Source: a virus
Virus record (IMG/VR): IMGVR_UViG_3300009161_000083
Coordinates: 1 to 44,513 of that record
Length of the DNA: 44,513 nt
Reading direction: 5' to 3' (one strand)
Shown here: positions 5,156-31,128 of the stretch, in pieces
Position numbering within the stretch: position 1 is the first letter of the stretch
How the letters are laid out: each line of letters opens with the position of its first letter
The notes under the pieces: generated by a model
What the model saw: the letters and a program-made list of their open reading frames with translations, nothing else
Told to the model about the DNA's origin: nothing
Database searches by the model: none
Made by a program: the position numbers and the translations under genes

Positions 5156-6361
5156 ATGGCCACACAAACAATCGAATTCCGAAGCCCACCATCGCAGACA
5201 ATCACGGCGAAACTATTTGCTGTCGGCAGCGATACGCAGGTTGCGTCAGTCAGCACAACGGAGGCAACGAATCGCAAAGGCACATACGCTGGAGCGTACA
5301 CAGACGTTCCTGCTGGCGAGTATGAGTTGATTGCGTTGGTCAGCACAACGCCGGTTGCTCGGTGGTTCGTCACGCTGACATTGACGACGGCGACGTTTCA
5401 AGTTTACGACAAAAGTCAAACGGTGCTGATGGTGGCTGATGTTGTCAACGCCTCGGCGCTGGCAGCGGATGCTGTCACAGAGATCCAGAGCGGTCTGGCT
5501 ATTGCCGCAACAGCCCTATCAACGACACAGTGGACGAACACACTTGCGGCGAATATCGGCACGACAAATACGACGGTTGCCATAGGTATTGATGCGACTA
5601 TTAGCAGCAGATTAGCCTCGGCCAGTTACACAGCCCCATCCAACCTGACAGCGGCACAGATTGCAACGGGTGTTTGGCAGGATGCAACTGCCGGGGACTT
5701 TACAACCGCATCCTCAGTCGGCAAGTCTCTGTACAACGCTTTCACGGCAGGCACATCCGTGTTCACAGTTGCTGCATTGGCCAATGCGCCATCAGGTGGT
5801 GGTGGTGGTGGTGATCCGTGGGCAACAGTGGAACCCGGATCATACATTGCCGGAACATTTGGATATCTGCTGTCCACACAAATAGCAGACAAAACAGATC
5901 TGATAGGCAACGCTTCTGCTATCACATCGTTGTTGGCAGCAGCGGTATTGGAACCGGGGACAATTACTTCCTTCCCCGAAACACTTACCATTGGGGATTC
6001 TTACACTACAGCCAATGGTAGGAGTATTCAAATCCCAATTGTTGACACTGATGGGACACCAATATCAGTCACAGGCACCCTGTACTTTGCTGATGCTATT
6101 GCCACATTTACCATCAAACGTAATGGCGAAACAGACACATCCCGCACGATATCTGGGACTGCCACATTCACAGACCCACCCGGAACTGGTACAGGTGATG
6201 AGGCCCCATACGCCACCATTGAATTATTACCTTCAGAAACCATTAAAGGGTTGATAGGATATAAATACTCAGGTGTACTTACTTTCACATGGACAGGAAC
6301 AGGATCTGATGAAGATGAGGTAATGTCATTTGAGACAGACACCATTCTTTTTGACAACTAA
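5156..6361 (+). CDS. Baseplate/fibre-like protein with a compositional junction
   Basis: This 401-residue protein has an N-terminal domain (about 1-85) with the look of an immunoglobulin-like sandwich, a low-complexity helical middle rich in Ala/Thr, a Gly6 hinge near residue 220, and a C-terminal domain (about 270-401) starting ETLTIGDSYTTANGRSIQIP that resembles phage domains for receptor-binding or upper-baseplate proteins. The ribosome site is AGAAGGTGG before the ATG. Codon style changes near base 5930 from GCG/ACG-rich to the style of the TerL gene downstream, so the C-terminal domain and the N-terminal part may have different origins. Confidence 0.6.
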   Translation: MATQTIEFRSPPSQTITAKLFAVGSDTQVASVSTTEATNRKGTYAGAYTDVPAGEYELIALVSTTPVARWFVTLTLTTATFQVYDKSQTVLMVADVVNASALAADAVTEIQSGLAIAATALSTTQWTNTLAANIGTTNTTVAIGIDATISSRLASASYTAPSNLTAAQIATGVWQDATAGDFTTASSVGKSLYNAFTAGTSVFTVAALANAPSGGGGGGDPWATVEPGSYIAGTFGYLLSTQIADKTDLIGNASAITSLLAAAVLEPGTITSFPETLTIGDSYTTANGRSIQIPIVDTDGTPISVTGTLYFADAIATFTIKRNGETDTSRTISGTATFTDPPGTGTGDEAPYATIELLPSETIKGLIGYKYSGVLTFTWTGTGSDEDEVMSFETDTILFDN

Positions 6362-6381: not shown

Positions 6382-9234
6382 ATGCTTGACCTTGAATTGG
6401 AAATTGACCCAGCTTCTTCTTACATCCATGGACCCAGTAGACTCAAGATACCAGAGACTTTGTATGAGAAAGGAAAATTGGTTGGCTGGCAATGGCAGGA
6501 AGTTGTTACCACCACTTTCCTAAAAGGCATCCCACTCTACGATCCATTCACTTCTGCTAAAGGATATTACTTCGATACAGAGGAGTGGGACAAGATTGTA
6601 GCATTCATCACCAATGAATGTTTTTACCCGGAAGCAGAAAACACAGGACTGCCGTTTATACCTGAGCAATGGCAATCACGAATTTATGCCAACTTGTTCT
6701 GTTGGAAAGAAGAAGGGACCAACTACCGAAGGTTCCGAGAATGCTTCATATATGTGCCGCGAAAAAATGGCAAGTTATTGGATCTAAATTGTCCTATCCC
6801 CACAGTTTCTGGATGGAGAACTATGGGAACACTTCGGGATACAGATGTACTGTTCGACAAAGATGGGAATCAATGTGGCATCAGTTACCTTCACCAACCA
6901 GTGCAGAATCCAAAATCATTTGATGTCAAGTTCTCTAATGGTGAAACAGTAAAAGCATGTGCAGATCATCAATGGTATATTCATTCCAGACTTCAACATC
7001 CAAAACACAATAGTAAAGGATCACCAACACTAAATAGTATTGGTAATGATTTATATGAAGGTGTATGGACTACACAAGAATTATTTGATCGTGGTGTGGA
7101 TAGTGGTTGCGGTAAATCATTTTGTGTGCCAATGCACAACGGGATTATTTGCGAGACTGCTAAACTTCCAATTGATCCTTATTTGCTAGGCTATTGGTTG
7201 GGGGATGGTGCTTCAGCCAGTGGGAGCATAACAATTGGAGATCAGGATATTGATCAGTGTGAAATTGTGTTCTCTCACAAACATATCCCTAGGAATTACT
7301 TAAGATCATCCATCAGTCAAAGACTGTCGCTACTTCAAGGATTGATGGATTCATACGGCACGATAAGTAAACGTGGAACAGATATTTCATTTATAAACAA
7401 AGATGAAAAACTAATTGACAATGTTGCGGAATTGTTGGCATCACTAGGGTTAAAATACTCAAAACGTACTATCCATAAATCATGCCAAACAGGAGTTGTT
7501 GGTACGTACTTCCAACTTCAATTCATGGCGTTCAAAGATACCCATCCAGTATTCCGACTACAAAGGAAATTAGACAGACAGAAACTGACAGCATCAACAG
7601 GACGATCAAGAAACTGCCACATTGTTTCTATCACTCCTTGTAAGTCCGAACCAATGCGGTGTATCACAGTGGATTCCCCATCAGGCACATACCTGTTTGG
7701 GAACACCATGTTGCCTACACATAACACGACAGCCTTCGGAGCAGTCCTATCCCTGATTATGTTTTTTATAGATAGTGAAAAGAGAGCACAAAACTTTTGT
7801 TGTGCTGCGGACATTGAACAGGCATCGCTCAACTTTCGTCATTGTCAGTACATCATTGAAACCAACCCACGATTGTTGTCACGACTACGAGACAAAAAAG
7901 TATTTCGTTCCACACGATCATTTGAACACACTGATGGGTCTGTATTCAAAGTCCTATCTTCAATTGCCGATACCAAGCATGGACTATCTCCCAACTTTGT
8001 GTATGTGGATGAAGTACATGCTCATGCCAACAGCGACCTTATTGATGTTATGGTTACAGGAACTGGTGCCCGCAGACAACCACTTATTGTGTACACCACC
8101 ACTGCTGACTTTGATCGGCCTTCCGTCTGCAACAACCTGTATGAGAAAGCCAAAGCCATTGCCACAGACAAGCAATGGGAACCCACATTTCTTCCAGTAA
8201 TCTATGAAGCCCAACTTTCAGATGATTTTCGATCAGAGCAAGTATGGCGTAAAGCCAATCCCAACTTCGGCGTTTCCATTACTGAAGATTACTTCCAGAG
8301 ACTGGTTCGTAATGCTGAAAATAACCCCAATGAACTGAATAGGTTTCTTCGTCTACATTTGAATGTCCGTACCAAAACTGAAACAGCATGGATACCTCAA
8401 CACATTTGGGCCAATGGTAATGCTGATCCAGAAACTCCATTGCTCTCTATCGTAGCCATTCGAAAGTGGATTGAAGAACACTCCCTATGGCACAACATTG
8501 CTTTGTCGGACAAGTGGCATTCATCAGCATCTTTGGATGTGTACATTGGCAGGTTCCAATTGTACTGGTCATGGTACATCAAACAGATTGAATTTCTGAA
8601 GGATGAAGAATGCTACGCTGGCTATGACAATGCCACAGTTAAAGATATAGCTGCTCTCAATCTTTGGTTCCCACGCTATGGAATTATGTTGCATTGGGGA
8701 TGGGTACCTGCCCAATCCATTTACCAACGAAGTATGGAACAAAACCTCCCTTACAATATATGGTGGGAAGCTGGACTCATTAACAGTACATCCCCACAAG
8801 AAACAGTAGATGAAAACCTTATCTTGTCGGCAATGATAGGCGAAAAAGGAAACAAGCAAAAAGGTATTTTCACCCACTTCAGAGGGCTAAGAGAAGTCTG
8901 TTTTGACCGTTGGGGTGCCCACCACATCTTCACCAGTCTTAAACAGTATGGCCTCCCTGCTCGTGCATACCCTCAAAGTTTTGCGGGTATGAATGAACCA
9001 TGCAGAAGGATGGAAGCACTATCGCTAGATCATCAACTGTTCCATGGTGGCCACCCTGTCTTAGACTGGATGATTGGAAATGTGGTGATTGTCCAATCTC
9101 GTGATGGACAAGTCAGACCCGATAGATCAAAATCAATAAATAAGATAGACGGCATAGTTGCTGGACTTATGGCAATAGGTTCTTACCTATACCCTGAAGT
9201 AGAAACAATCTCTGAAATCAGAGGACTTAAATAA
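6382..9234 (+). CDS. terL: Terminase large subunit precursor with intein
   Basis: This 950-residue frame encodes the ATP-driven DNA packaging motor. The extein parts are residues 1-131 and 449-950 (633 residues once spliced), normal for this type. Joined, they form the Walker A sequence PRKNGKTTAFG. Walker B is FVYVDEVHAH near residue 540, followed by the TTTADFD coupling segment. The nuclease domain follows, with SLDVYIGRF near 716 in place of the usual D..G..D core and YAGYDNATVKDIAAL as the likely RNase H-like Asp strand. Packaging depends on protein splicing because the insertion cuts the P-loop. The stop overlaps the portal ATG by one base (TAATG). No strong ribosome site precedes the ATG at 6382. 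Confidence 0.93.
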   Translation: MLDLELEIDPASSYIHGPSRLKIPETLYEKGKLVGWQWQEVVTTTFLKGIPLYDPFTSAKGYYFDTEEWDKIVAFITNECFYPEAENTGLPFIPEQWQSRIYANLFCWKEEGTNYRRFRECFIYVPRKNGKLLDLNCPIPTVSGWRTMGTLRDTDVLFDKDGNQCGISYLHQPVQNPKSFDVKFSNGETVKACADHQWYIHSRLQHPKHNSKGSPTLNSIGNDLYEGVWTTQELFDRGVDSGCGKSFCVPMHNGIICETAKLPIDPYLLGYWLGDGASASGSITIGDQDIDQCEIVFSHKHIPRNYLRSSISQRLSLLQGLMDSYGTISKRGTDISFINKDEKLIDNVAELLASLGLKYSKRTIHKSCQTGVVGTYFQLQFMAFKDTHPVFRLQRKLDRQKLTASTGRSRNCHIVSITPCKSEPMRCITVDSPSGTYLFGNTMLPTHNTTAFGAVLSLIMFFIDSEKRAQNFCCAADIEQASLNFRHCQYIIETNPRLLSRLRDKKVFRSTRSFEHTDGSVFKVLSSIADTKHGLSPNFVYVDEVHAHANSDLIDVMVTGTGARRQPLIVYTTTADFDRPSVCNNLYEKAKAIATDKQWEPTFLPVIYEAQLSDDFRSEQVWRKANPNFGVSITEDYFQRLVRNAENNPNELNRFLRLHLNVRTKTETAWIPQHIWANGNADPETPLLSIVAIRKWIEEHSLWHNIALSDKWHSSASLDVYIGRFQLYWSWYIKQIEFLKDEECYAGYDNATVKDIAALNLWFPRYGIMLHWGWVPAQSIYQRSMEQNLPYNIWWEAGLINSTSPQETVDENLILSAMIGEKGNKQKGIFTHFRGLREVCFDRWGAHHIFTSLKQYGLPARAYPQSFAGMNEPCRRMEALSLDHQLFHGGHPVLDWMIGNVVIVQSRDGQVRPDRSKSINKIDGIVAGLMAIGSYLYPEVETISEIRGLK
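6775..7725 (+). mobile_element. Intein in the TerL Walker A motif, class 3-like, with decayed LAGLIDADG nuclease
   Basis: Residues 132-448 (317 residues) interrupt TerL between GK and TTAFG. The N-terminus is LLDLNCPIPTVSGWRTMG, so position 1 is Leu, not Cys or Ser. Block B is ACADHQWYI with His and Trp; block F is MRCITVDSPSGTYL with Cys; block G is MLPTHN followed by Thr. That Trp-Cys-Thr set defines class 3 inteins, in which the block F Cys starts splicing. Between them lies YLLGYWLGDGA (first LAGLIDADG helix) and LSLLQGLMDSYGTI (second), where the catalytic Asp of the second helix is Tyr. The region between the helices is short. Splicing looks intact and homing nuclease activity probably lost. 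Confidence 0.88.
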
Positions 9235-11051
9235 TGTTTGGATGGCCACGCAAATCACCTGAAGCCACTATCAAAAAATCAGCGGTAAAGAACCTGTTCG
9301 ACATGGTGATGAACAGTGGTTCTACTTTGACATGGCAGAACTTATTTGGAGTGATCAACCATGAACAGATGTACTCAAGTCAGAGTTCCAATGCTCTTAA
9401 ACTGTCCGCTGTAAAATGTGCTTTGGACATTTACACAGGCATGATTGGGGGTGTCCCACGTCGCATGTACGCTCTTGAACCCGGTTCACAGAGTAAAACC
9501 CGTGTAGTGGCCACCACAGAGCATCCTGCGTCACGTCTGTTTTCTCATTATTTCCACCCAGAACTGTCAGCAGATGAAGCACTTCTACAGATCATTTATG
9601 ATGTGCTGATGGATGGCAACTGCTACTACATCCGTGAGAAGGACCAACAAGGCCGCACAGCACGCCTCTACTACATCCATCCTTCAAGGATTCCACCAGC
9701 CAACATCTACCGTGCAACAGGTCAAGAGAAGTTGGCTACAGGCAGATTGGCCACCAAAGGAGAATTGGTTTACCGAATTGATGCAGGGCTATCTTCTCGT
9801 GATATGAATTCCGAATACGTACTGCTATGCCGTGATGACATTGTTCACTTCAAAGGCAAGGTACTGGACTCTGAGTATCATCGTGGTCAGGGTTTTATTT
9901 CCAACTCAAAGATATCATTGGAATTGTACAAAGCATCTGAAGAATTTGGATGGAGATTTTATTCTCGTGGGATAGCCACGCAGATGTTCCTGACCACTGA
10001 AAACAGATTGGCACCCGAAGTTCTCAGTCGCATTGAAGCCAATTTTAACGAAGACCCCAACGCGCCACTTGAAGACATCTTCAAAACTCGTGTACTTGAA
10101 CAAGGGCTGAAACCAGTCCACATGGGTATCCCATTCCAACATCTCCAATTTATTGAGACCCGTGCATTCTCTGTAGAAGACGTGTCACGGGGCTTTAATG
10201 TCCCACCAGTGCTTCTACACTCATACATGGGAACCCAAGCAGGATCTGCTGATTTAAGCCAAGCTGTGGCATTATTTATTCAGACTGGGATGGGGCCATT
10301 TATAAGCCGCATCTGTAGTCAATTCAGAACGGAGTTACTCCCACTCCCATCACAGATGCTATTCAGCTTTGAATTTGAACTGCTGTATTTGTACCGCAGT
10401 GTCATTGACAAGTTTACCACATCTCTCCGCAACCTATTTGAGATAGGCATGATAGATCGTCAGTACGCTGCCAACTTGCTGGGTATGCACATTGACCCCA
10501 ATGATCCCGCCAACAACCTGCGTTATGTGCCGGTCAACTTGATGACTGTAGACCACAGCCTCAACCTTCAAAAACAAGCAGAACAATCCAACGAACTCCA
10601 ACGCAAAGAGATTGACACATTTGTTGGTGCCGCCGACATGGCACAGATGCAAGCTGACAATGCCGCCAAAGCCATGGATCAGCAAGCAGCCCACACTTCC
10701 GCAGCAGCCCAAGACAAACTTAACCAAGCCCCAGATAAGAACACCATTGACAAACGATTACGACCAGCAGCCAATAAAGCATTCATAAACGTCATCAATG
10801 GGCTGAAGCAATATGAAACACGAGTGTTGGAACAGAAGCAACAATCCCGTCCCGATGATTTTGAAGCGTCCCGTACAGAGTTCTATGCCGCCAATGGTAA
10901 ATTTTACACCATGCTGGGTGATCAACTATCATCTTGGAATGATGTAATCACCATCAACTCAATGACCATGTCCACACTTCGTGAGCAATGGATAACCAAT
11001 GCGTCCTGTCCTGAAGGGATTGAAAATGGAATCACTTGTATTGAATCGTAA
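9234..11051 (+). CDS. Portal protein (HK97 family)
   Basis: This 605-residue protein would form the dodecameric portal at the capsid vertex through which DNA enters. Its placement between TerL and a ClpP-like protease, and features such as LKLSAVKCALDIYTGMIGG and PRRMY near the N-terminus, the DDIVHFKG segment, and GFNVPPVLLHSYMG near 320, are those of HK97-type portals. The C-terminal about 150 residues are helical and rich in Gln/Ala (NAAKAMDQQAAHTSAAAQ), longer than the minimal family length. Translation is coupled to terL by a one-base overlap. Confidence 0.9.
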   Translation: MFGWPRKSPEATIKKSAVKNLFDMVMNSGSTLTWQNLFGVINHEQMYSSQSSNALKLSAVKCALDIYTGMIGGVPRRMYALEPGSQSKTRVVATTEHPASRLFSHYFHPELSADEALLQIIYDVLMDGNCYYIREKDQQGRTARLYYIHPSRIPPANIYRATGQEKLATGRLATKGELVYRIDAGLSSRDMNSEYVLLCRDDIVHFKGKVLDSEYHRGQGFISNSKISLELYKASEEFGWRFYSRGIATQMFLTTENRLAPEVLSRIEANFNEDPNAPLEDIFKTRVLEQGLKPVHMGIPFQHLQFIETRAFSVEDVSRGFNVPPVLLHSYMGTQAGSADLSQAVALFIQTGMGPFISRICSQFRTELLPLPSQMLFSFEFELLYLYRSVIDKFTTSLRNLFEIGMIDRQYAANLLGMHIDPNDPANNLRYVPVNLMTVDHSLNLQKQAEQSNELQRKEIDTFVGAADMAQMQADNAAKAMDQQAAHTSAAAQDKLNQAPDKNTIDKRLRPAANKAFINVINGLKQYETRVLEQKQQSRPDDFEASRTEFYAANGKFYTMLGDQLSSWNDVITINSMTMSTLREQWITNASCPEGIENGITCIES

Positions 11052-11748
11052 AGCACTCCCATCAGGCCAACTGTTAGAGTGCCGCTTGGCCTTCAACCAA
11101 GCCAAAGAACTTGAAATTTATGATGTAATAGCCCCTTACAAGTTCTACGAAGGTGACACCGCTGTAACTGTAGGCGACGTGACTGACTTTCTCTCAGAAG
11201 CCCCCCAGGGGGATCTGACTGTACGAATCAATTCATCGGGTGGTGAAGTTGGTTCTGCACTGGCCATCTACAACAGATTACTGGAACACCCCGGTAAAGT
11301 AACCACTGTTGTAGATGGTTACGCATTCTCGTCTGCTGGCTGGCTGGCATTGGCTGGTACTGATCGGCAGATATGCAATGGTGGATTGTTCATGATGCAC
11401 AACCCCTACATGTACGCACGCATTGATTCTCTCAAGGAGGTAGCCAATGCTCAGGCCCGTTGGGAATCACACAGAGATTCCATAGTTGACATCTTCGCTG
11501 CCCGGACTCCTGTTGCCAGAGAAACCATCATCAACATGATGGAAGCTGAGACCTACCTATCAGCTTCCGAATCTGTGGACAAAGGGTTCTTTCACTCTGT
11601 ACGGAATGCCCGTCCCGACACCGCCATGTTGAACTGTTTATCTATCCCAGAAACAGTCAAAGACAAGTATACTGCGGATAACACTGAAATGGATGCCATG
11701 CGGCTTCAACTCAGAATGCGAAATATCAAGAGTAAGTTCTTGAAATAA
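11026..11748 (+). CDS. Head maturation protease, ClpP-like
   Basis: This 240-residue serine protease of the ClpP/S49 group would cleave the capsid N-terminal scaffold during maturation. Visible features are RINSSGGEVGSALAIYN (residues about 68-83), the nucleophile in GYAFSSAGWLALAG (Ser102), and MMHNPY with His125. An ATG at 10999 is in frame, but the ATG at 11026 has a GAAGGGA ribosome site and is preferred; the gene overlaps the portal 3' end. The order portal, protease, capsid is the classical HK97 order. Confidence 0.9.
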   Translation: MESLVLNRKALPSGQLLECRLAFNQAKELEIYDVIAPYKFYEGDTAVTVGDVTDFLSEAPQGDLTVRINSSGGEVGSALAIYNRLLEHPGKVTTVVDGYAFSSAGWLALAGTDRQICNGGLFMMHNPYMYARIDSLKEVANAQARWESHRDSIVDIFAARTPVARETIINMMEAETYLSASESVDKGFFHSVRNARPDTAMLNCLSIPETVKDKYTADNTEMDAMRLQLRMRNIKSKFLK

Positions 11749-11873: not shown

Positions 11874-13325
11874 ATGGCAACCCATGCCCAGTCAATTGAA
11901 CTGTGTTTCAATGACACCCCAGTGAAGAATGCCGATGTCCCAACCATGACGGCTAATCAACTTCAGGATGAACGTACTCGGCTGATTACCATCACTGATG
12001 TGTTTGACACCAAAGGTGACAAGATCACACGAGAAGAATTGACACAATACAAGGACGCTGTAGATCGTCTTGAATCTGTACAGAATGCTGTCAGTTCCAC
12101 TCAAGTAGGGTTGGCTGAACGGCGTGCCGCATTGCTGGCAACCAGTCGTATTGCCAATGCTTCCAACGGGATGCTGGACTTGTCTCGTGGCATCACTTCC
12201 CGCCCATTGTGGGAAGACGACAAAGAAAAGTTTGGGTTTCACAACCAGCAGGAATACTTGGGGGCAGTCATCAATGCCTACAAGAATAAGAGCAACCCTG
12301 ATGTCATTGATGTTCGCTTAAAAGCAAGTGTGATGAACGCCATTGGCTCTGATGAATTTAGTAAGGCCAATTGGGAATCCGCAGGGATGACTGTTCCACG
12401 GGGGTTCATCAACACCATCATGCAGTTGGAACCTGAAGCTGATCTATTGACTGGTGGTGCCACTCGAATCCCAATGTCAGCACCCATCGTAGATATTCCT
12501 GCTCGTGTGGACAAAGACCATCGCACATCGGTGACTGGTGGGTTCCGTATTTACCGTGGCAAAGAAACAACAGCACCAACACTGTCAACTTCAGCCATGG
12601 AAATGATTTCCCTCAAAGCACACGAGTTGAATGGTGCTGCTGCTGCAACCAACCAGTTGATGGCTGACAGTCCAATCTCCATCGCCGCTTTGATTGACAA
12701 TGGGCTTCGACAGGAAGCGCGTTCATACCGTATGGAAGAATTCCTATACGGCAATGGTATCGGTCGTCCTTTGGGATGCCTACACGCCAACAACTTGTCC
12801 CGTCTTCAAGTTCTACGAGAAAATGGCCAGTCCACTTCTCAAATTATAACGGGCCTAAATGTACTCAAAATGCGGCAACGTGTTTGGGGTTACAGCAACG
12901 CTTTATGGGTGGCATCCCTTGACTTGTACCCAAACATTGTGCAGCTATGTTTGGAATCACCAAACAACGCTGGCATTGTTAAACTGTTTCATGCAGCAGA
13001 TGGTGCAGACAATTACGATACCCTTCTGGGTCGTCCCATCATCTGGACAGAGTACATGGATGGTATCGCCAGCGGTGACGGGAATGTCATCAGTGAATGG
13101 AATGACAATTTCTTTGCTTGTGTCAATCCTTCGCAGATCCTCTTTGGTGAACGTGGGACAGGCACTTTAAGCCGATCTATCCATGTCCGATTCCTCGAAC
13201 GTGAAGAAGTGTTCTTGTTCACATCGTTCGATGATGCCCGACCATGGTGGACTTCAGTAATGACACCAAACCGTGGATCTCTGACAATGTCACCATTTGT
13301 AGTGTTGTCAACAACTACTGCATAA
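11874..13325 (+). CDS. Major capsid protein (HK97 fold)
   Basis: This 483-residue protein is the shell subunit. An N-terminal charged helical region of about 100 residues (TANQLQDERTRLITITDVFD and following) matches the delta/scaffold domain removed by the neighbouring protease. The body has the family's EWNDNFFACVNPSQILFGERG-type loop region and RSIHVRFLEREEVFLFTSFD near the C-terminus, typical of HK97-like capsids. The AGGAAC ribosome site precedes the ATG. A strong intrinsic terminator follows at 13367-13402, consistent with a heavily expressed gene ending a transcript. Confidence 0.9.
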   Translation: MATHAQSIELCFNDTPVKNADVPTMTANQLQDERTRLITITDVFDTKGDKITREELTQYKDAVDRLESVQNAVSSTQVGLAERRAALLATSRIANASNGMLDLSRGITSRPLWEDDKEKFGFHNQQEYLGAVINAYKNKSNPDVIDVRLKASVMNAIGSDEFSKANWESAGMTVPRGFINTIMQLEPEADLLTGGATRIPMSAPIVDIPARVDKDHRTSVTGGFRIYRGKETTAPTLSTSAMEMISLKAHELNGAAAATNQLMADSPISIAALIDNGLRQEARSYRMEEFLYGNGIGRPLGCLHANNLSRLQVLRENGQSTSQIITGLNVLKMRQRVWGYSNALWVASLDLYPNIVQLCLESPNNAGIVKLFHAADGADNYDTLLGRPIIWTEYMDGIASGDGNVISEWNDNFFACVNPSQILFGERGTGTLSRSIHVRFLEREEVFLFTSFDDARPWWTSVMTPNRGSLTMSPFVVLSTTTA

Positions 13326-24403: not shown

Positions 24404-25624
24404 ATGTCTCTAGTGCCTGTCAGATCCACATGCCGCATATGTGGTTCCCCCGATCTTGATCACGTCTTCACTCTTGGTGACCATTATGTGAGTGACTTTG
24501 TATCGCCCGGAAAAGCCTTTGCCGGTATCCGGTGCGCAATTGAATTGGTCAAGTGTAATTACTGCACACTGGTTCAAAACCCGCACACCGCACCACAGGA
24601 ACTCTTGTACACAGGACACTACTGGTACAGGTCTGGTGTGACACAAACAATGAAAGCAGCATTGGCTGACATAGTTGTTGCAGCAAACAAAGCTGTTGAC
24701 CTGAATTGGGGGGATGTCGTTCTGGATATCGGCAGCAACGACGGGACACTGCTACGATGTTACAACCATAGGTTGTTCAAAGTAGGAGTGGAGCCAGCCG
24801 AAAACTTTGCCGAAGTTGGTGCTGTAGGTGTCAACTTATTCATCAATGACTTTTGGAACGCCAATTGTATCGCTCCTGGCGCAGCCAAAGTCATTACTGC
24901 CATCGGGATGTTCTATGACTTGGATGACCCCAATCAATTCATATCCGACATAGCGACCGCACTGCATAAAGATGGGGTGTTCATTGCCCAACTTATGTGT
25001 CTACAGAACATGATTAACTGTTCTGATATCGGCAACTTGGCCCATGAGCATCTGGAGTTCTACACTCTAAAGTCGTTGCAGTACCTGTTGGGGAAGCACG
25101 GACTAGAGTTGTACGACATCGAGACCAACAACACCAATGGGGAAAGTTACCGTCTGTTCATTCAACACAAAGACGGACAACACAAAGTATCATCCTCAGT
25201 GGCAGCATATCAAAGCAGTGAGCAAGACATAATGACTGCCCTTCAAGAGTTTCTAGTCAGAATGAATTTGAACAAAATAGGACTCCAACAATTCATTTTT
25301 CAGCAGATGGCCGAGCGTTCCAATAAACGCATCTGGGTGTATGGTGCATCCACTAAAGGAAACACCATCCTGCAATATCTAGCCCTAGATCATTATGACA
25401 TTCAGGGTGCCTCCGAACGCTCACCAGAAAAATGGGGCATGGTAACTGCTGGAAGCAACATCCCCATCCATTCAGAAGAAACAGCTAGAAAAGCAATGCC
25501 GGATTATTTTTTGGTTTTACCGTATGCCTTCATCGACGAATTTATAAAACGGGAAGCCAATCAACCATGGCGTAAACAAGGTGGGAAATTCATAGTGCCC
25601 CTGCCAGAATGGAGAATCTTATGA
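24404..25624 (+). CDS. SAM-dependent C-methyltransferase (NovU/TylC3-like)
   Basis: This 406-residue protein has the three-part layout of deoxysugar C-methyltransferases. First is an N-terminal zinc module, CRICGSPDLDHV with CNYCTLVQ. Next is a Rossmann methyltransferase core with VVLDIGSNDGTLL (SAM site) and AHEHLEFYTLKSL. Last is a C-terminal domain with RIWVYGASTKGNTILQYL, a second nucleotide-binding-like fold. The full set is present and of normal length. It probably methylates a 4-keto nucleotide sugar; the substrate is unknown. The TGA overlaps the next ATG. Confidence 0.85.
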   Translation: MSLVPVRSTCRICGSPDLDHVFTLGDHYVSDFVSPGKAFAGIRCAIELVKCNYCTLVQNPHTAPQELLYTGHYWYRSGVTQTMKAALADIVVAANKAVDLNWGDVVLDIGSNDGTLLRCYNHRLFKVGVEPAENFAEVGAVGVNLFINDFWNANCIAPGAAKVITAIGMFYDLDDPNQFISDIATALHKDGVFIAQLMCLQNMINCSDIGNLAHEHLEFYTLKSLQYLLGKHGLELYDIETNNTNGESYRLFIQHKDGQHKVSSSVAAYQSSEQDIMTALQEFLVRMNLNKIGLQQFIFQQMAERSNKRIWVYGASTKGNTILQYLALDHYDIQGASERSPEKWGMVTAGSNIPIHSEETARKAMPDYFLVLPYAFIDEFIKREANQPWRKQGGKFIVPLPEWRIL

Positions 25625-26562
25625 AACGCGCATTCATAACGGGCATAGGCGGCCAAGATGGTTCCTACTTGGCCGACATCCTTCTGGAGAAAGGCTATGA
25701 AGTTCATGGGCTTATTCGACACTCATCAACAGGTAACCTGAAGAATCTGGTGCCGTACTTGGACAGTATCACTCTGCACAAGGGTGACATATCCGATGGG
25801 CTTTGCATGGATCGTATTATCCAACGTGTACGACCAAATGAGGTGTACCATGAAGCTGACCAAGACAATGTTGATTGGTCATTCTGCTACCCCGCATTCC
25901 AGATGGATACTACCGCAACAGCAGTAGCCAACTTACTCCATTCAGTTTTGGAACACTGCCGTCATGCCAAAGTATTTATCCCCGTATCAGCCACCATGTT
26001 TGGTGATGCTCCTGCCCCCCAAACAGAAACCACACCATTCAACCCACTCAGTCCTTACGCTTGTGGAAAAGTCGCTGCGTATCATTTGGCACGATACTAC
26101 CGTCAAGTACATGGCATGTTTGTGTCCACTGGGATTCTTTACAACCACGAGTCCGATAGGAGACACGGGGCTGAGTATTTAGTCCAGAAGATATGTAAGG
26201 CAGCAGCATTTTTAGAAAAAGTAACTCTATACAACATGAATGATGTGGTGGACGTTGGGTTTGCCAAAGACTACATGAATCATGTGTACAACATGATGCA
26301 ACTGGATGCCCCCGATGACTACATAATCTGTGCTGACTACCCACGAACCATCAGGCATATTGCCGATGCAGCATTTAAGTGTGTGGGCGAAGATTACCAT
26401 CACTACGTAACTGAGTCATCCGCACAATTACGACCCGGCCCCAAGCACACTCTGACGGGAGTGATGACCAAACTGGAGAGTAAAATGAGTTGCCCTGCTT
26501 CTACCGAATTCATTCCCATGCTTTACAACATCATTGCCAAATATAAACAGAGGACAGTATGA
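25621..26562 (+). CDS. GDP-mannose 4,6-dehydratase-like SDR protein
   Basis: This 313-residue extended short-chain dehydrogenase would act on a nucleotide sugar. G-I-G-G-Q-D-G (residues 8-14) binds NAD(P). SPYACGK holds Tyr146 and Lys150. The TTPFNPLSPYACGK and GILYNHESDRR sections are specific for GDP-mannose 4,6-dehydratases. One catalytic residue is odd: that family has Ser/Thr-x-Glu before the Leu/Met-Tyr/Phe-Gly, whereas this protein reads VSATMFG, with Thr in place of Glu. The ATG at 25609 is in frame, but the ATG at 25621 overlaps the stop and is preferred. Overall size is slightly short for the family. Confidence 0.8.
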   Translation: MKRAFITGIGGQDGSYLADILLEKGYEVHGLIRHSSTGNLKNLVPYLDSITLHKGDISDGLCMDRIIQRVRPNEVYHEADQDNVDWSFCYPAFQMDTTATAVANLLHSVLEHCRHAKVFIPVSATMFGDAPAPQTETTPFNPLSPYACGKVAAYHLARYYRQVHGMFVSTGILYNHESDRRHGAEYLVQKICKAAAFLEKVTLYNMNDVVDVGFAKDYMNHVYNMMQLDAPDDYIICADYPRTIRHIADAAFKCVGEDYHHYVTESSAQLRPGPKHTLTGVMTKLESKMSCPASTEFIPMLYNIIAKYKQRTV

Positions 26563-27587
26563 AAGTTGGGTCAGTTGTGTACGCCACCAATCAAGGATTG
26601 GGGCATCTAGCCAAGTCATTTTACGATGCTGATGTCGTTGACAAGGTGATGATCTACCGCCACCCTCACGGTGAGATAGCCGCACCCACACATAGAGAGT
26701 GGTATCCCAATGACACGCCTGTTTTGATAGCCAGCAACTTTGCGTCAAAAGTAGCAGAGCGGTTCCTTGATGATGTTGATGTCATGCTATTTTTTGAAAC
26801 TCCGTTTGATTGGAGTTTTGCAAACAGATGCCATGAACGTGAAGTAAAGACAGTTCTTATCCCCATGTACGAATGGTTCCCACTGAACCCACCACATGCG
26901 TTTGACTTGTTTATAAACCCATCAGCACTCGATCAACAATACTTCCCACATGGAATCCACATTCCAATTCCAGTGGACAAGGACATAAAACATACCGTGA
27001 GGCACACAGCCACACGGTTTCTACATAATGCTGGGCATATTGGTAGCCGCAACCACAAAGGCACTCTTGAACTTCTCAGGGCCATGGAATTTGTCCAGTC
27101 CCCAATTCAACTCACAGTTAGATGCCAGCACACAAAAGGACTACACAGACTTCTCCATAGTTCCGGCATTAACATGGATGACCCACGACTTGAAATAGTA
27201 GATCACGAAGTACCACGGGGCGAACTATTCCACGCTGACTTTGACGTGTACATTGCCCCTGAAAAGTACAATGGACTGAGTCTTCCACTCCAACAAGCGT
27301 TTGCATCTGGAATGCCTGTGATGACTTCTGACAGGTTCCCTCACAACACTTGGTTGCCCAATGAGATACTAATCTCTGTGAGTGGCATACAGACAGCCCA
27401 AGTGATGGGCGGACACATGTTAATTGAGGAGTCTATTATTACTCCCAGAGACATAGCACAGACCATAGATGACTGGTATGGGAAAGACATTACACACTTA
27501 TCTCAACTGGGACATCAATACGCAATTGATAACAGTTGGGAGCAACTCAAACCACGATACACAGAAGCACTGGAGAACGTAGTATGA
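26559..27587 (+). CDS. Glycosyltransferase, GT-B type (GT4-like)
   Basis: This 342-residue protein has the layout of a GT-B transferase: an N-terminal Rossmann start (VGSVVYATNQGLGHLAKSFY), a middle with FLHNAGHIGSRNHKGTLELL at the domain change, and a C-terminal donor section with APEKYNGLSLPLQQAFASGM, the Glu-rich/EX7E-like region in modified form (E at the PEKYNGLSLPL site). ATGA overlaps link it to both neighbours. The sugar donor may be the nucleotide sugar made by the cassette. Confidence 0.7.
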   Translation: MKVGSVVYATNQGLGHLAKSFYDADVVDKVMIYRHPHGEIAAPTHREWYPNDTPVLIASNFASKVAERFLDDVDVMLFFETPFDWSFANRCHEREVKTVLIPMYEWFPLNPPHAFDLFINPSALDQQYFPHGIHIPIPVDKDIKHTVRHTATRFLHNAGHIGSRNHKGTLELLRAMEFVQSPIQLTVRCQHTKGLHRLLHSSGINMDDPRLEIVDHEVPRGELFHADFDVYIAPEKYNGLSLPLQQAFASGMPVMTSDRFPHNTWLPNEILISVSGIQTAQVMGGHMLIEESIITPRDIAQTIDDWYGKDITHLSQLGHQYAIDNSWEQLKPRYTEALENVV

Positions 27588-28450
27588 AAGTTGCATTGTG
27601 TACATTGGTTCTGAATGAAATGGAATGGCTACCCAAGTTATATGAGCAACATAAAAACTGGCCCGACATGGTTCGTTGGGTGTTCGTTGAATCTGCCGAC
27701 ACCATGTACACTCAAGCCAATCCCGATGTTGTGTCGGCAGATGGGTTATCAACGGATGGGACAACTGAGTTTTTAGAAGAACTGGCCAGCAAAGACCCTC
27801 GCATTACCCACATCAAACATGGGTTCTCTTACAACGACGATCCTGCTCAGGGAAAATGTGAGTCTCGTAACCGATACCTAAGAGCAATTGAACCCGACGC
27901 TCCTGACTTCTTTGTTGTGCTGGATGCAGATGAGTTCTACCTAAAACAAACCCAGACCAACCTCAACCATTTCATCCCTACAAGGACAGAATGGGGGCAC
28001 TGCTTTGCGCATCGTGAAATATGGTACCCACCATACTTAAAAGCAGCAGGAAAAAATCTATTTGATTTAGAAGTTGTTGGTGGGTTCTGGAGTATCCCAT
28101 ACTGTAGAGTTTGGAAATGGTTTGCAAATCTCCAGTACAATAACCACAACACTCCTTCTCACAGTAATGGTCTGCCCCTTGATAAAAGGTTGGCTCAGTA
28201 CACGCAATACCCAACCAGTCCCTATTTTGTTCATATGGGGTTTGCATCAAATCTTGAAAACCGAGCAGCTAAAAATAGATACTATGAAGTAAGAGGGGAA
28301 TCTGTTGATAAAAACCGATCATGGTACTGTGATAGTCGCAAAGCCTTTGAAACTTGGACTCCCAAAACTGTACTCCCCCAGAGTGCCAAAGTAATTAAGT
28401 ACCGAGGTGAAATCCCTGAAGTATTCCTGCTCAACGACAACAGAGTTTAA
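27584..28450 (+). CDS. Glycosyltransferase, GT-A type (GT2-like)
   Basis: This 288-residue protein starts MKVALCTLVLNEMEWLPKLY, the opening of GT2-type transferases, with SADGLSTDGTTEFLEEL and the metal-binding FVVLDADEFYL (D-A-D). The C-terminal half is Trp/Tyr-rich. A longer frame opens at 27536, but the ATG at 27584 overlaps the previous stop (ATGA). The acceptor is unknown. Confidence 0.75.
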   Translation: MKVALCTLVLNEMEWLPKLYEQHKNWPDMVRWVFVESADTMYTQANPDVVSADGLSTDGTTEFLEELASKDPRITHIKHGFSYNDDPAQGKCESRNRYLRAIEPDAPDFFVVLDADEFYLKQTQTNLNHFIPTRTEWGHCFAHREIWYPPYLKAAGKNLFDLEVVGGFWSIPYCRVWKWFANLQYNNHNTPSHSNGLPLDKRLAQYTQYPTSPYFVHMGFASNLENRAAKNRYYEVRGESVDKNRSWYCDSRKAFETWTPKTVLPQSAKVIKYRGEIPEVFLLNDNRV

Positions 28451-28452
28451 CT

Positions 28453-29349
28453 ATGCGACACATGAAAATATGGTTCCCCAATTATTTTACAGAAGCCCAC
28501 CGTAAACCCGGAGAAGGGCAAGCACTGGTAGAGGAACTTCATAAGTTTGGAATTGATTCCCAATGGGCACTTACCAGTGACTGCTCATTTATTTTCTGTG
28601 GATCTACTTGGGAATCGTCTGGAGTGGATCAAACTCGTGTAGCCCACCCAGACGTTCCTGTAGTGCATTACAATTGGGATTTGTACCCATTCCAACTTGT
28701 TGAACGTACAGACTATGTGCGTCCCAACCCGGAGATTTGGGACCCATACATCACATCACTAAAGACATGTAGAGACATCTGGGTTCCTTCCTACTGCACT
28801 ACACTAAGGACTCGTGAATTTACTGGCAGAGAATCAACAATCATAAAAACTGCCATCCATCCTTGGGAGTCCGATGGAGTATCCACAGGTGACTATGCAG
28901 TTGATGTGGTTAGATGCTACCCAGACTTTTGCAGCGGTGAAGTACAACAAGGATGTGTAGCCACCAGCATCCCATTAGTTCAATCTCAAAACACACTACA
29001 GTGGGACGAATTTAGATCCACTATCTCAAACTGCAAGTTCATGGTATCCGGCCAGTTTGAAGCGTCCACAGGGGGGCTAACTTTGCTTGAGGGACTATGG
29101 CACGGCAAGCCTTCACTACTCTCCAACTCACCACGGCATGGAGGCGTAGACTACCTTGGAAATCGTGCCACATATTTCCAGTGGGACAATCAATTGTTGC
29201 TACGGAAATCACTGCTCCAGATGGTAGACAATACTCCTGTTATTGATGTTGATGAGGTACGCACTTGGATTACTAAAGAGTACAGCAACTTCGCCATGGC
29301 TGAAAGAATGGCTAAACGCTTTTGGGAATTGTACGATGAATCAAATTGA
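28453..29349 (+). CDS. Glycosyltransferase, GT-B type
   Basis: This 298-residue protein begins with a Rossmann-like KIWFPNYFTEAHRKPGEGQA and has a donor-domain section with VSGQFEASTGGLTLLEGLWH, where the E-A-S-T-G-G-L-T-L-L-E spacing matches the EX7E motif of GT4-type enzymes. SNSPRHGGVDYLGNRATYF follows. It is shorter than typical two-domain enzymes (about 350), so the N-terminal acceptor domain is reduced. The start may instead be the ATG at 28462. Confidence 0.7.
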   Translation: MRHMKIWFPNYFTEAHRKPGEGQALVEELHKFGIDSQWALTSDCSFIFCGSTWESSGVDQTRVAHPDVPVVHYNWDLYPFQLVERTDYVRPNPEIWDPYITSLKTCRDIWVPSYCTTLRTREFTGRESTIIKTAIHPWESDGVSTGDYAVDVVRCYPDFCSGEVQQGCVATSIPLVQSQNTLQWDEFRSTISNCKFMVSGQFEASTGGLTLLEGLWHGKPSLLSNSPRHGGVDYLGNRATYFQWDNQLLLRKSLLQMVDNTPVIDVDEVRTWITKEYSNFAMAERMAKRFWELYDESN

Positions 29350-29701
29350 TCGTGAAAAGTGCATCAAACCTTTCATTGGGGTTCATTTGATTGAGCATGA
29401 AAATGGCTACATTGTCTGGAGAATGGGCACAGGCTACAACATTGAATTACTGCACCTAAAGACCTATGTGCCCAAACAAGGAACCGGCAAGCAGTTACTA
29501 AAAGCCATGCTAACAAAACTCAAAGAATCCCCGCCGTATCAAACAGTGTTCGGCTTTACGCGATACAATAACTATAACTCTCAGAAATTCTATGAGGCAC
29601 AAGGGTTTGAACTGTCAGAAGTTTCCGGTGTGTATGCTGATGGAGCAGCCGTTATCTTCTCTCAAGAGTACAGAAAGTTACTTGAACTTCACGAACTGTA
29701 G
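29336..29701 (+). CDS. GNAT-family acetyltransferase
   Basis: This 121-residue protein has the GNAT core: HLKTYVPKQGTGKQLLKAML, where the Q-G-T-G-K stretch is the acetyl-CoA pyrophosphate loop, then a strand and FYEAQGFELSEVSG near the C-terminus. The frame opens at 29243, but the ATG at 29336 has a GGGAA ribosome site and overlaps the preceding gene by 14 bases. In a cassette with an aminotransferase it may acetylate an amino sugar; this is inference. Confidence 0.7.
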   Translation: MNQIDREKCIKPFIGVHLIEHENGYIVWRMGTGYNIELLHLKTYVPKQGTGKQLLKAMLTKLKESPPYQTVFGFTRYNNYNSQKFYEAQGFELSEVSGVYADGAAVIFSQEYRKLLELHEL

Positions 29702-29710
29702 GAGCAATCA

Positions 29711-30148
29711 ATGCGAGTAGAGGAAATAAAAATTCCAGATACAGTAGTTGTGCTGGCAACAATTATTTTTTATTCCCCACACGTCTATGATAAAGACCTG
29801 ACTGAATTCATAACCGACCCATCACGTTCCATTCAAGTTGGGGTACTCCATCGACGGGCACAGACTAAGATAGAGTGTCACCAACACCTGCCAAAACAAA
29901 AGACAGTCAATGGGTGTCAAGAAGTCTTAATCATTAAATCAGGAATGCTTCATGTTGATATCTATGATCCAGACAGAAACTACATCTGTACTCGGGTACT
30001 AAGAACCGGCGACATACTGATCCAGTATTGGGGTGGGCACGCTTTTGAGTTCATAACTGATACTGTATTCATCGAACTGAAACAAGGCCCATACACTCCC
30101 GAAGACAAAGTATTCTTCAACCCTCTAGCCCATGAGCAAATGAAATGA
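29711..30148 (+). CDS. Cupin-like protein
   Basis: This 145-residue protein has a cupin-type beta-barrel pattern: IECHQHLPKQKTVNGCQEVL (H-x-H with a later Glu), GMLHVDIYD, then TGDILIQYWGGHAFEFI. The His and Glu positions suit a metal or sugar-binding site. Sugar epimerases and isomerases of this fold accompany aminotransferase genes in deoxysugar pathways. A TAGGAG ribosome site precedes the ATG; the stop overlaps the aminotransferase start as ATGA. Confidence 0.65.
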   Translation: MRVEEIKIPDTVVVLATIIFYSPHVYDKDLTEFITDPSRSIQVGVLHRRAQTKIECHQHLPKQKTVNGCQEVLIIKSGMLHVDIYDPDRNYICTRVLRTGDILIQYWGGHAFEFITDTVFIELKQGPYTPEDKVFFNPLAHEQMK

Positions 30149-31128
30149 CCATGCAACCATTTGAACAACTGGAACGTGATTTTGGTCTTTGGTTGGGTAA
30201 CCCACATTGTGTGGCTGTTAGTTCGGGAACGTCTGCTCTACATCTGGCTCTTGAAACTTTTAACCTCTTGCGTCATCAAAAAGTTATTGTCCCTGACTTC
30301 ACCATGGTGGCTTGCCCCCGTGCTGTTGTTATGGCTGGACTGACTCCCACCTTCATTGACTGCGGTAATGATCTCTTAATCCGCCCCAATCTGGTACACA
30401 AAGCAGTCGGTGACAACTCCAGCATCATTGCCATCATGGCAGTGCATGTTTATGGTCGCATCTGTGACATGGAAGCCTTGCACGATGTGTCAGAAGGAGT
30501 CTTTGTCATTGAAGATATGGCTGAAGCCCACGGTGTGTTCCCACACCAAGATACAGATGCTGCATGTTGGAGTTTCTACAAGAATAAAATTGTCTATGGT
30601 GAAGAAGGCGGGATGATTGCGTTCAAACAAAAACGACATGCCGACGCTGCCAAAGAACTACGGTCATTAGGGTTTGACTCCCAACACAATTTCTCTCATC
30701 GTCCGCGAGGAGTCAACGCTCGCATGTCCAACCTTCACGCCATACCCATTTTGGATAGCTTCCATAACATGGGAACCAACTTGTACAGCCGTGCCAGAAT
30801 AGCCGACATGTACAACACATTATTACCTCCAGAATACTTAATGCCGCCTAGGACTGTGAACTGGGTGCATGACATACGTATCCCCGGAATGAATTACTCC
30901 CAGCAAGCCAACATTGTCACAACCCTTAACAACATAGGTATAGCTGCCCGTCATGCGTTCAAGCCCATGACTTCACAAATGGAGTTCATCCAAGCCACTA
31001 ACAATGTCAATGCCCACCGACTATCACAGGAAATAATCTACCTGCCCATAACCGAACATATGACAGGGAAAACTGTAATGATCAATGTGGGAGCATTACT
31101 GGCCGCTGTAAATAGTGAAAGAAAATAA
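30145..31128 (+). CDS. DegT/DnrJ/EryC1 sugar aminotransferase
   Basis: This 327-residue PLP enzyme has VAVSSGTSALHLALE (phosphate-binding GTSAL), DMAEAHGVFP near residue 132 (PLP ring Asp), CWSFYKNKIVYGEEGGMI with the Schiff-base Lys in NK, and RGVNARMSNLHAI. All are landmarks of the sugar aminotransferase group that includes perosamine synthase. Together with the GDP-mannose-dehydratase-like gene and the GNAT, an amino-deoxysugar such as N-acetylperosamine is a plausible product, not a shown one. It is slightly shorter than the usual 370 residues. A 13-mer copy lies within it at 30832. Confidence 0.85.
   Translation: MTMQPFEQLERDFGLWLGNPHCVAVSSGTSALHLALETFNLLRHQKVIVPDFTMVACPRAVVMAGLTPTFIDCGNDLLIRPNLVHKAVGDNSSIIAIMAVHVYGRICDMEALHDVSEGVFVIEDMAEAHGVFPHQDTDAACWSFYKNKIVYGEEGGMIAFKQKRHADAAKELRSLGFDSQHNFSHRPRGVNARMSNLHAIPILDSFHNMGTNLYSRARIADMYNTLLPPEYLMPPRTVNWVHDIRIPGMNYSQQANIVTTLNNIGIAARHAFKPMTSQMEFIQATNNVNAHRLSQEIIYLPITEHMTGKTVMINVGALLAAVNSERK

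Follow-up and report, generated by a model that had tools for sequence, protein, structure and literature searches.

We conclude that the terminase large subunit (TerL) gene of the window, i.e., the whole stretch of viral DNA that was analysed (44,513 nucleotides; IMG/VR record IMGVR_UViG_3300009161_000083), is split in its Walker A motif by a class 3 intein. Judging from sequence comparison and structural models, this intein is with high probability a splicing-only element that no longer homes, and it persists beside intein-free and full-endonuclease alleles in very close phages. The host gene (ORF 6382–9234, plus strand, 950 aa) matches the Pfam families TerL_ATPase (5e-22), TerL_nuclease (1e-20), and LAGLIDADG_3 (1.6e-07), and the PHROG terminase large subunit (8e-117). 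On its 3′ side follow, by PHROG match, a portal (9234–11051), a ClpP-type head protease (10999–11748), and a major head protein (11874–13325); the TerL gene belongs to an HK97-like head module of a tailed phage.

The intein comprises 317 residues, Leu1 to Asn317 (6775–7725, plus strand; residues 132–448 of the TerL ORF), and its 317 codons are inserted in frame between PRKNGK and TTAFG. It separates the Walker A Lys from the Thr (PRKNGK/TT), the Lys/Thr position of the terminase ATPase that characterizes sites of the TerL1-a type. The N-extein (6382–6774, plus strand, 131 aa; assigned from the ORF and PHROG TerL matches) ends in the Walker A sequence PRKNGK, and the C-extein (7726–9234, plus strand; assigned from the ORF, Pfam, and PHROG) starts with the Walker A Thr as residue +1, the predicted second branch-point nucleophile. 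Insertion between the invariant P-loop Lys and Thr of phage TerL has been described as site TerL1-a (Kelley et al. 2016, PMC5050341), and both this site and the lack of an ATP-binding loop before splicing are already known for P-loop inteins. The earlier note had placed an intein that splits the TerL P-loop at 6775–7725, and these ends are exact, because three insert-free TerL genes of the same species (L005, L006, and L007) read straight through the site as PRKNGK/TTAFGAV; they run PRKNGKTTAFGAV.

Residue 1 is a non-nucleophilic Leu (codon TTA, 6775–6777), and the Trp, Cys, and Thr that had been proposed as the class 3 signature in blocks B, F, and G are all in place. Block B contributes His65 (B:10) and Trp67 (B:12; 6967–6975), block F the predicted initiating nucleophile Cys296 (F:4; 7660–7662), and block G the sequence Thr315-His316-Asn317 (G:5–7; 7717–7725), all on the plus strand and with positions as defined in PMC5222942, PMC5050341, and PMC4031507. 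Apart from the absence of Cys, Ser, or Thr at residue 1, the accessory residues of the class (His65, His316, Asn317, and Thr at +1) are present. These assignments rest on an alignment of 20 inteins (A1) and on a survey of 171 unique class 3 relatives, in which Cys at F:4 and His at B:10 occur in every member, Trp at B:12 and Thr at G:5 each in 170, and in which 160 inserts are located after a Lys and before a Ser or Thr, i.e., at the P-loop position. A tblastn match to the TerL intein of Vibrio phage 489E54-1 (6e-53) shows a kinship with known inteins well above what chance would give, and the intein-family profile matches the solved class 3 DnaB inteins 6bs8, 6rix, and 6riy at 1e-37 to 1e-38 (4.7e-38 for 6bs8). 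An AlphaFold2 model of the window intein superimposes on solved class 3 inteins with target-normalised TM-scores of 0.83–0.85, with a Foldseek value of 1.6e-06 to 6riy; intein-bearing NCBIfam models matched weakly only. By sequence and model, the insert is a class 3 intein.

A conventional class 1 intein with a misread N-junction would represent the commonest kind of intein, and a Cys1 class 1 alignment had been named beforehand as a result that would overturn the class 3 assignment. This reading was rejected and must be considered exceedingly improbable, since the empty alleles set the junction at Lys/Leu, residue 1 is Leu and not Cys, Ser, or Thr, and the alignment places the Trp, Cys, and Thr residues of the signature as above. 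A class 2 intein of the KlbA type, defined by Ala1, Ser at G:6, and Cys at +1 (PMC4031507), was likewise rejected, as the window intein has Leu1, His316, and Thr at +1.

The search for class 3 inteins with Leu1, suggested together with the remark that this residue is uncommon, gave 12 cases among the 171 relatives. The counts for residue 1 are Ala 96, Gln 37, Leu 12, Met 5, Glu 5, Pro 5, Gly 4, Ser 3, Arg 2, and Asp 2, in a survey that was mostly seeded on LAGLIDADG motifs and therefore misses endonuclease-free mini-inteins. Leu is thus uncommon in the sense of a minority state, but it is also the third commonest residue at this position. Three of the 12 cases derive from the lineage of the window; Klebsiella phage K64-1 and Gordonia phage Ali17 are among the others, as are contigs from viral and bacterial collections. 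With residue 1 left out of the calculation, the Leu/non-Leu distribution needs 10 changes on a FastTree phylogeny, and the closest relatives that share the TerL site of the window intein have Met1 (L010 and L012) or Glu1 (L057). A new chemistry based on Leu1 was therefore rejected; from these sequences Leu1 is a minority state and not a novelty. A variable residue 1 agrees with class 3 chemistry because this residue does not act as nucleophile, and acceptance of at least 10 residue types at position 1, as found in the survey, is useful for intein engineering.

Several other combinations of residues were noted in the survey. The first LAGLIDADG motif reads WLGNG, with Asn for Asp, in 33 of the 37 Gln1 inteins, with the Asp of the second motif kept, and the same applies to four of the five Glu1 inteins (e.g., L168, L170, L184, and L188 in the survey set); many such inteins are encoded by Clostridia or related bacteria. 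In three members (L100, L167, and L206), the penultimate His of block G is replaced by Gly or Cys (PTGN, PTCN), and the class 3 signature is otherwise full. The inteins of mycobacteriophages StubbySaigey and Yassified (L043 and L055), in genes annotated as HNH endonuclease, combine the class 3 signature with Ser1, which could in principle serve as a class 1 nucleophile. The class 3-like TerL intein of Vibrio phage 12VC501 (L054) has Asn for Trp at B:12, and is the sole Trp-less member of the 171.

From the class of the intein, we infer that Cys296 would attack the Lys-Leu1 peptide bond to form a branched thioester at block F, that the N-extein would then be transferred to Thr+1, and that Asn317 would cyclise, leaving TerL ligated as PRKNGKTT with a restored P-loop. 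Unspliced TerL is not expected to bind ATP or to package DNA. The proposal that packaging is conditional on splicing follows in this respect from the insertion site, but is the ordinary situation for P-loop inteins.

The endonuclease part had been described as shortened, with the second catalytic Asp replaced by Tyr, and both statements hold for the window record. The first LAGLIDADG motif (PYLLGYWLGDG, 7177–7209, plus strand) is intact including the catalytic Asp144, as seen from the alignment and confirmed at the codon. In the second motif (LLQGLMDSYG, 7330–7359, plus strand), the position occupied by Asp in relatives is Tyr194 (codon TAC, 7354–7356). Asp is found at position 194 in at least 90% of the members of A1, where the window is an exception; the named-phage members of A1 were identified by tblastn without LAGLIDADG seeds, and the conservation of Asp194 in the larger survey is inflated by such seeds. 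The shortening is evident from comparison with L002, which encodes the same intein with 27 extra endonuclease residues and both catalytic Asp residues, the length difference being a single in-frame block of 81 bp. The phage carrying L002 (with L004 on the same contig) is 95.9% identical to the window over 7 kb downstream. The sequence ACAAAC occurs twice in L002, flanking the 81-bp block, and once in the window, where it marks the deletion junction (7277–7282, plus strand). Repeats of 6 bp in this arrangement are, as read from the DNA alignment, the mark of slippage or a microhomology deletion. Because the TerL intein of the outgroup L010 also has the block, the shorter form seen in the window arose by deletion and is the derived one.

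The order of the two lesions can be deduced from L001, which differs from the window by 10 mismatches in 10,035 bp (99.90% identity). L001 has the same 81-bp deletion, but GAC (Asp194) where the window has TAC; the deletion accordingly preceded the Asp194Tyr change, unless Tyr194 is a sequencing error. Tyr194 is private to the window record, which is one metagenomic assembly, and is either very recent or such an error. The deletion, being common to L001, is the more secure lesion on the sequence evidence. By comparison, the endonuclease is thus shorter by 27 residues in its first half, owing to an in-frame deletion between 6-bp repeats, and the second catalytic Asp was substituted afterwards in the window record only.

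The AlphaFold2 models agree with such a loss. In the L002 precursor, numbered with 10 extein residues included, the first LAGLIDADG half is predicted to consist of helix 145–154, strands 161–165, 178–182, and 185–189, and helix 193–199, with pLDDT 95–97. In the window model, the strands are absent and replaced by a short helix (166–171), with pLDDT of 58–59 over residues 161–180, whereas the splicing-domain core has pLDDT 93–97 in both models. The Foldseek match to PI-SceI is 2.6e-18 for the L002 model compared with 2.9e-15 for the window model, and the match to I-DmoI 1.6e-05 compared with 6.7e-03. An active LAGLIDADG enzyme has an acid in both motifs and two complete halves with DNA-binding strands; the window intein has Asp144 and Tyr194, and the first-half strands present in the L002 model are missing from its own. 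A LAGLIDADG protein without one catalytic acid can in principle still nick DNA. Such residual nicking is unlikely here, as the first-half DNA-binding strands are also predicted to be lost. That the intein is still mobile and has kept DNA cutting or nicking despite its lesions is an unlikely alternative for the same reasons, i.e., the modelled loss of DNA-binding strands and a helix from the first half in addition to Tyr194, even though Asp144 is retained together with most of the second half and L001 combines both Asp residues with the same deletion. From the deletion, Tyr194, and the structural models, loss of homing is very likely for the window intein, in agreement with what had been surmised.

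A further alternative is that the whole intein is a splicing-dead pseudogene in a non-functional TerL, comparable to the intein of Arthrobacter Arth_1007. The endonuclease part is indeed decaying, and there is a documented precedent for a class 3 pseudogene (PMC3196547), but all catalytic splicing residues are intact, the reading frame is open, and TerL is strongly conserved, with one non-synonymous against 68 synonymous changes in the C-extein between the window and L002. We consider this alternative very unlikely. In the same comparison, the intein has a dN/dS of 0.085, indicative of purifying selection, and none of the four changes in its C-terminal splicing part is non-synonymous; the dN/dS value does not prove that splicing is maintained at present, because it mostly measures time before the deletion. 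Between the window and L002, the intein shows less synonymous divergence than the extein (0.128 and 0.226; Fisher p 0.018) and more non-synonymous divergence (0.011 and 0.0027; p 0.026), both from one pair and uncorrected. The lower synonymous value hints at recent horizontal movement of the intein, which we do not rely on, as it derives from a single pair.

The phages with empty alleles are 98.8–99.2% identical to the window over the downstream flank, and 99.6–100% in C-extein protein. Upstream of the site, L006 and L007 are identical to the window for more than 500 bases and L005 for about 110, and downstream the first difference from any of the three is at base 41. In the C-extein tree, the window and L001 with the deleted intein group with the empty L006 and L007, then with the empty L005, and then with L004/L002 with the full intein (supports 95/94, 96/94, and 100/100). 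Empty alleles and defective intein are therefore interleaved, and the sequences imply either a separate entry of the intein into the window/L001 lineage, or at least two precise losses. Co-conversion from an L002-like donor was not found, since upstream positions −4 and −7 and downstream offsets +2, +5, and +8 match the empty alleles, and not L002. A DNA-pattern search of viral_contigs gave no intein-bearing alleles of the lineage beyond L001 and L002. In the homing-cycle model, the endonuclease decays once the intein has become fixed. An asynchronous homing cycle has been proposed by Gogarten and Hilario (PMC1654191), and the allele arrangement looks like a better fit to this cycle than to decay after fixation, on the basis of six alleles that come from separate metagenomes and are not a population sample.

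It could also be argued that P-loop splicing times or gates packaging, that the intein is kept against intein-free competitors for this reason, and that endonuclease loss reflects domestication instead of decay. The Walker A position would suit such a role, and conditional splicing is described for other inteins, including mycobacterial DnaB (PMC6195587, PMC7360933). Near-identical phages lack the intein, which is therefore dispensable, and a regulatory role appears quite unlikely. The preferred explanation remains a splicing intein that has lost homing. Empty, full-endonuclease, deleted, and deleted plus point-mutated alleles are found in phages with about 96–99.9% identity across most of the sequence that was compared, an unusually clean natural allele series, ready for direct test, in which the loss of mobility is traceable stepwise.

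Among known systems, mycobacteriophage terminase inteins occupy sites TerL1-a to TerL1-e and include class 3 members with the Trp, Cys, and Thr signature and a LAGLIDADG domain (PMC5050341). They resemble the window intein in host protein, at TerL1-a also in the Lys/Thr site, and in part in class 3 LAGLIDADG type, but the window intein comes from a different, uncultured phage lineage, has Leu1, and has a partly deleted endonuclease. The closest annotated relative, the TerL intein of Vibrio phage 489E54-1 (OX241561), is 37% identical over the intein and has the same site and signature, but features Ala1 and a full-length endonuclease with both Asp residues. As for the window intein, the TerL inteins of K64-1 and Ali17 have Leu1 and the class 3 signature; they differ by their intact endonuclease motifs, at 30–33% identity. 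The DnaB1 class 3 mini-inteins of M. smegmatis and M. chimaera (6bs8 and 6rix) share the splicing-domain fold and signature, but have Ala1, a DnaB host, and no endonuclease at all. In analogy to the window intein, the P. horikoshii VMA intein (PMC8966425) has a decayed endonuclease, with loss of a catalytic Asp and a changed DNA-binding surface, and a preserved splicing fold. Unlike the window intein, it has Cys1 (class 1) and an archaeal host protein, and its decay was inferred between species, and not between near-identical genomes.

Two further regions of the window were noted. The gene directly 5′ of TerL (5156–6361) is the most variable stretch among the near-identical phages, with differences that greatly exceed the few percent of TerL; the variability, in part due to alignment indels, suggests a recombining or receptor-related protein. 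A run of glycan and nucleotide-sugar genes (24404–31128) includes a Methyltransf_13/14 C-methyltransferase (24404–25624), a weak glycosyltransferase match (26559–27587), and a DegT/DnrJ/EryC1/StrS aminotransferase (30145–31128).
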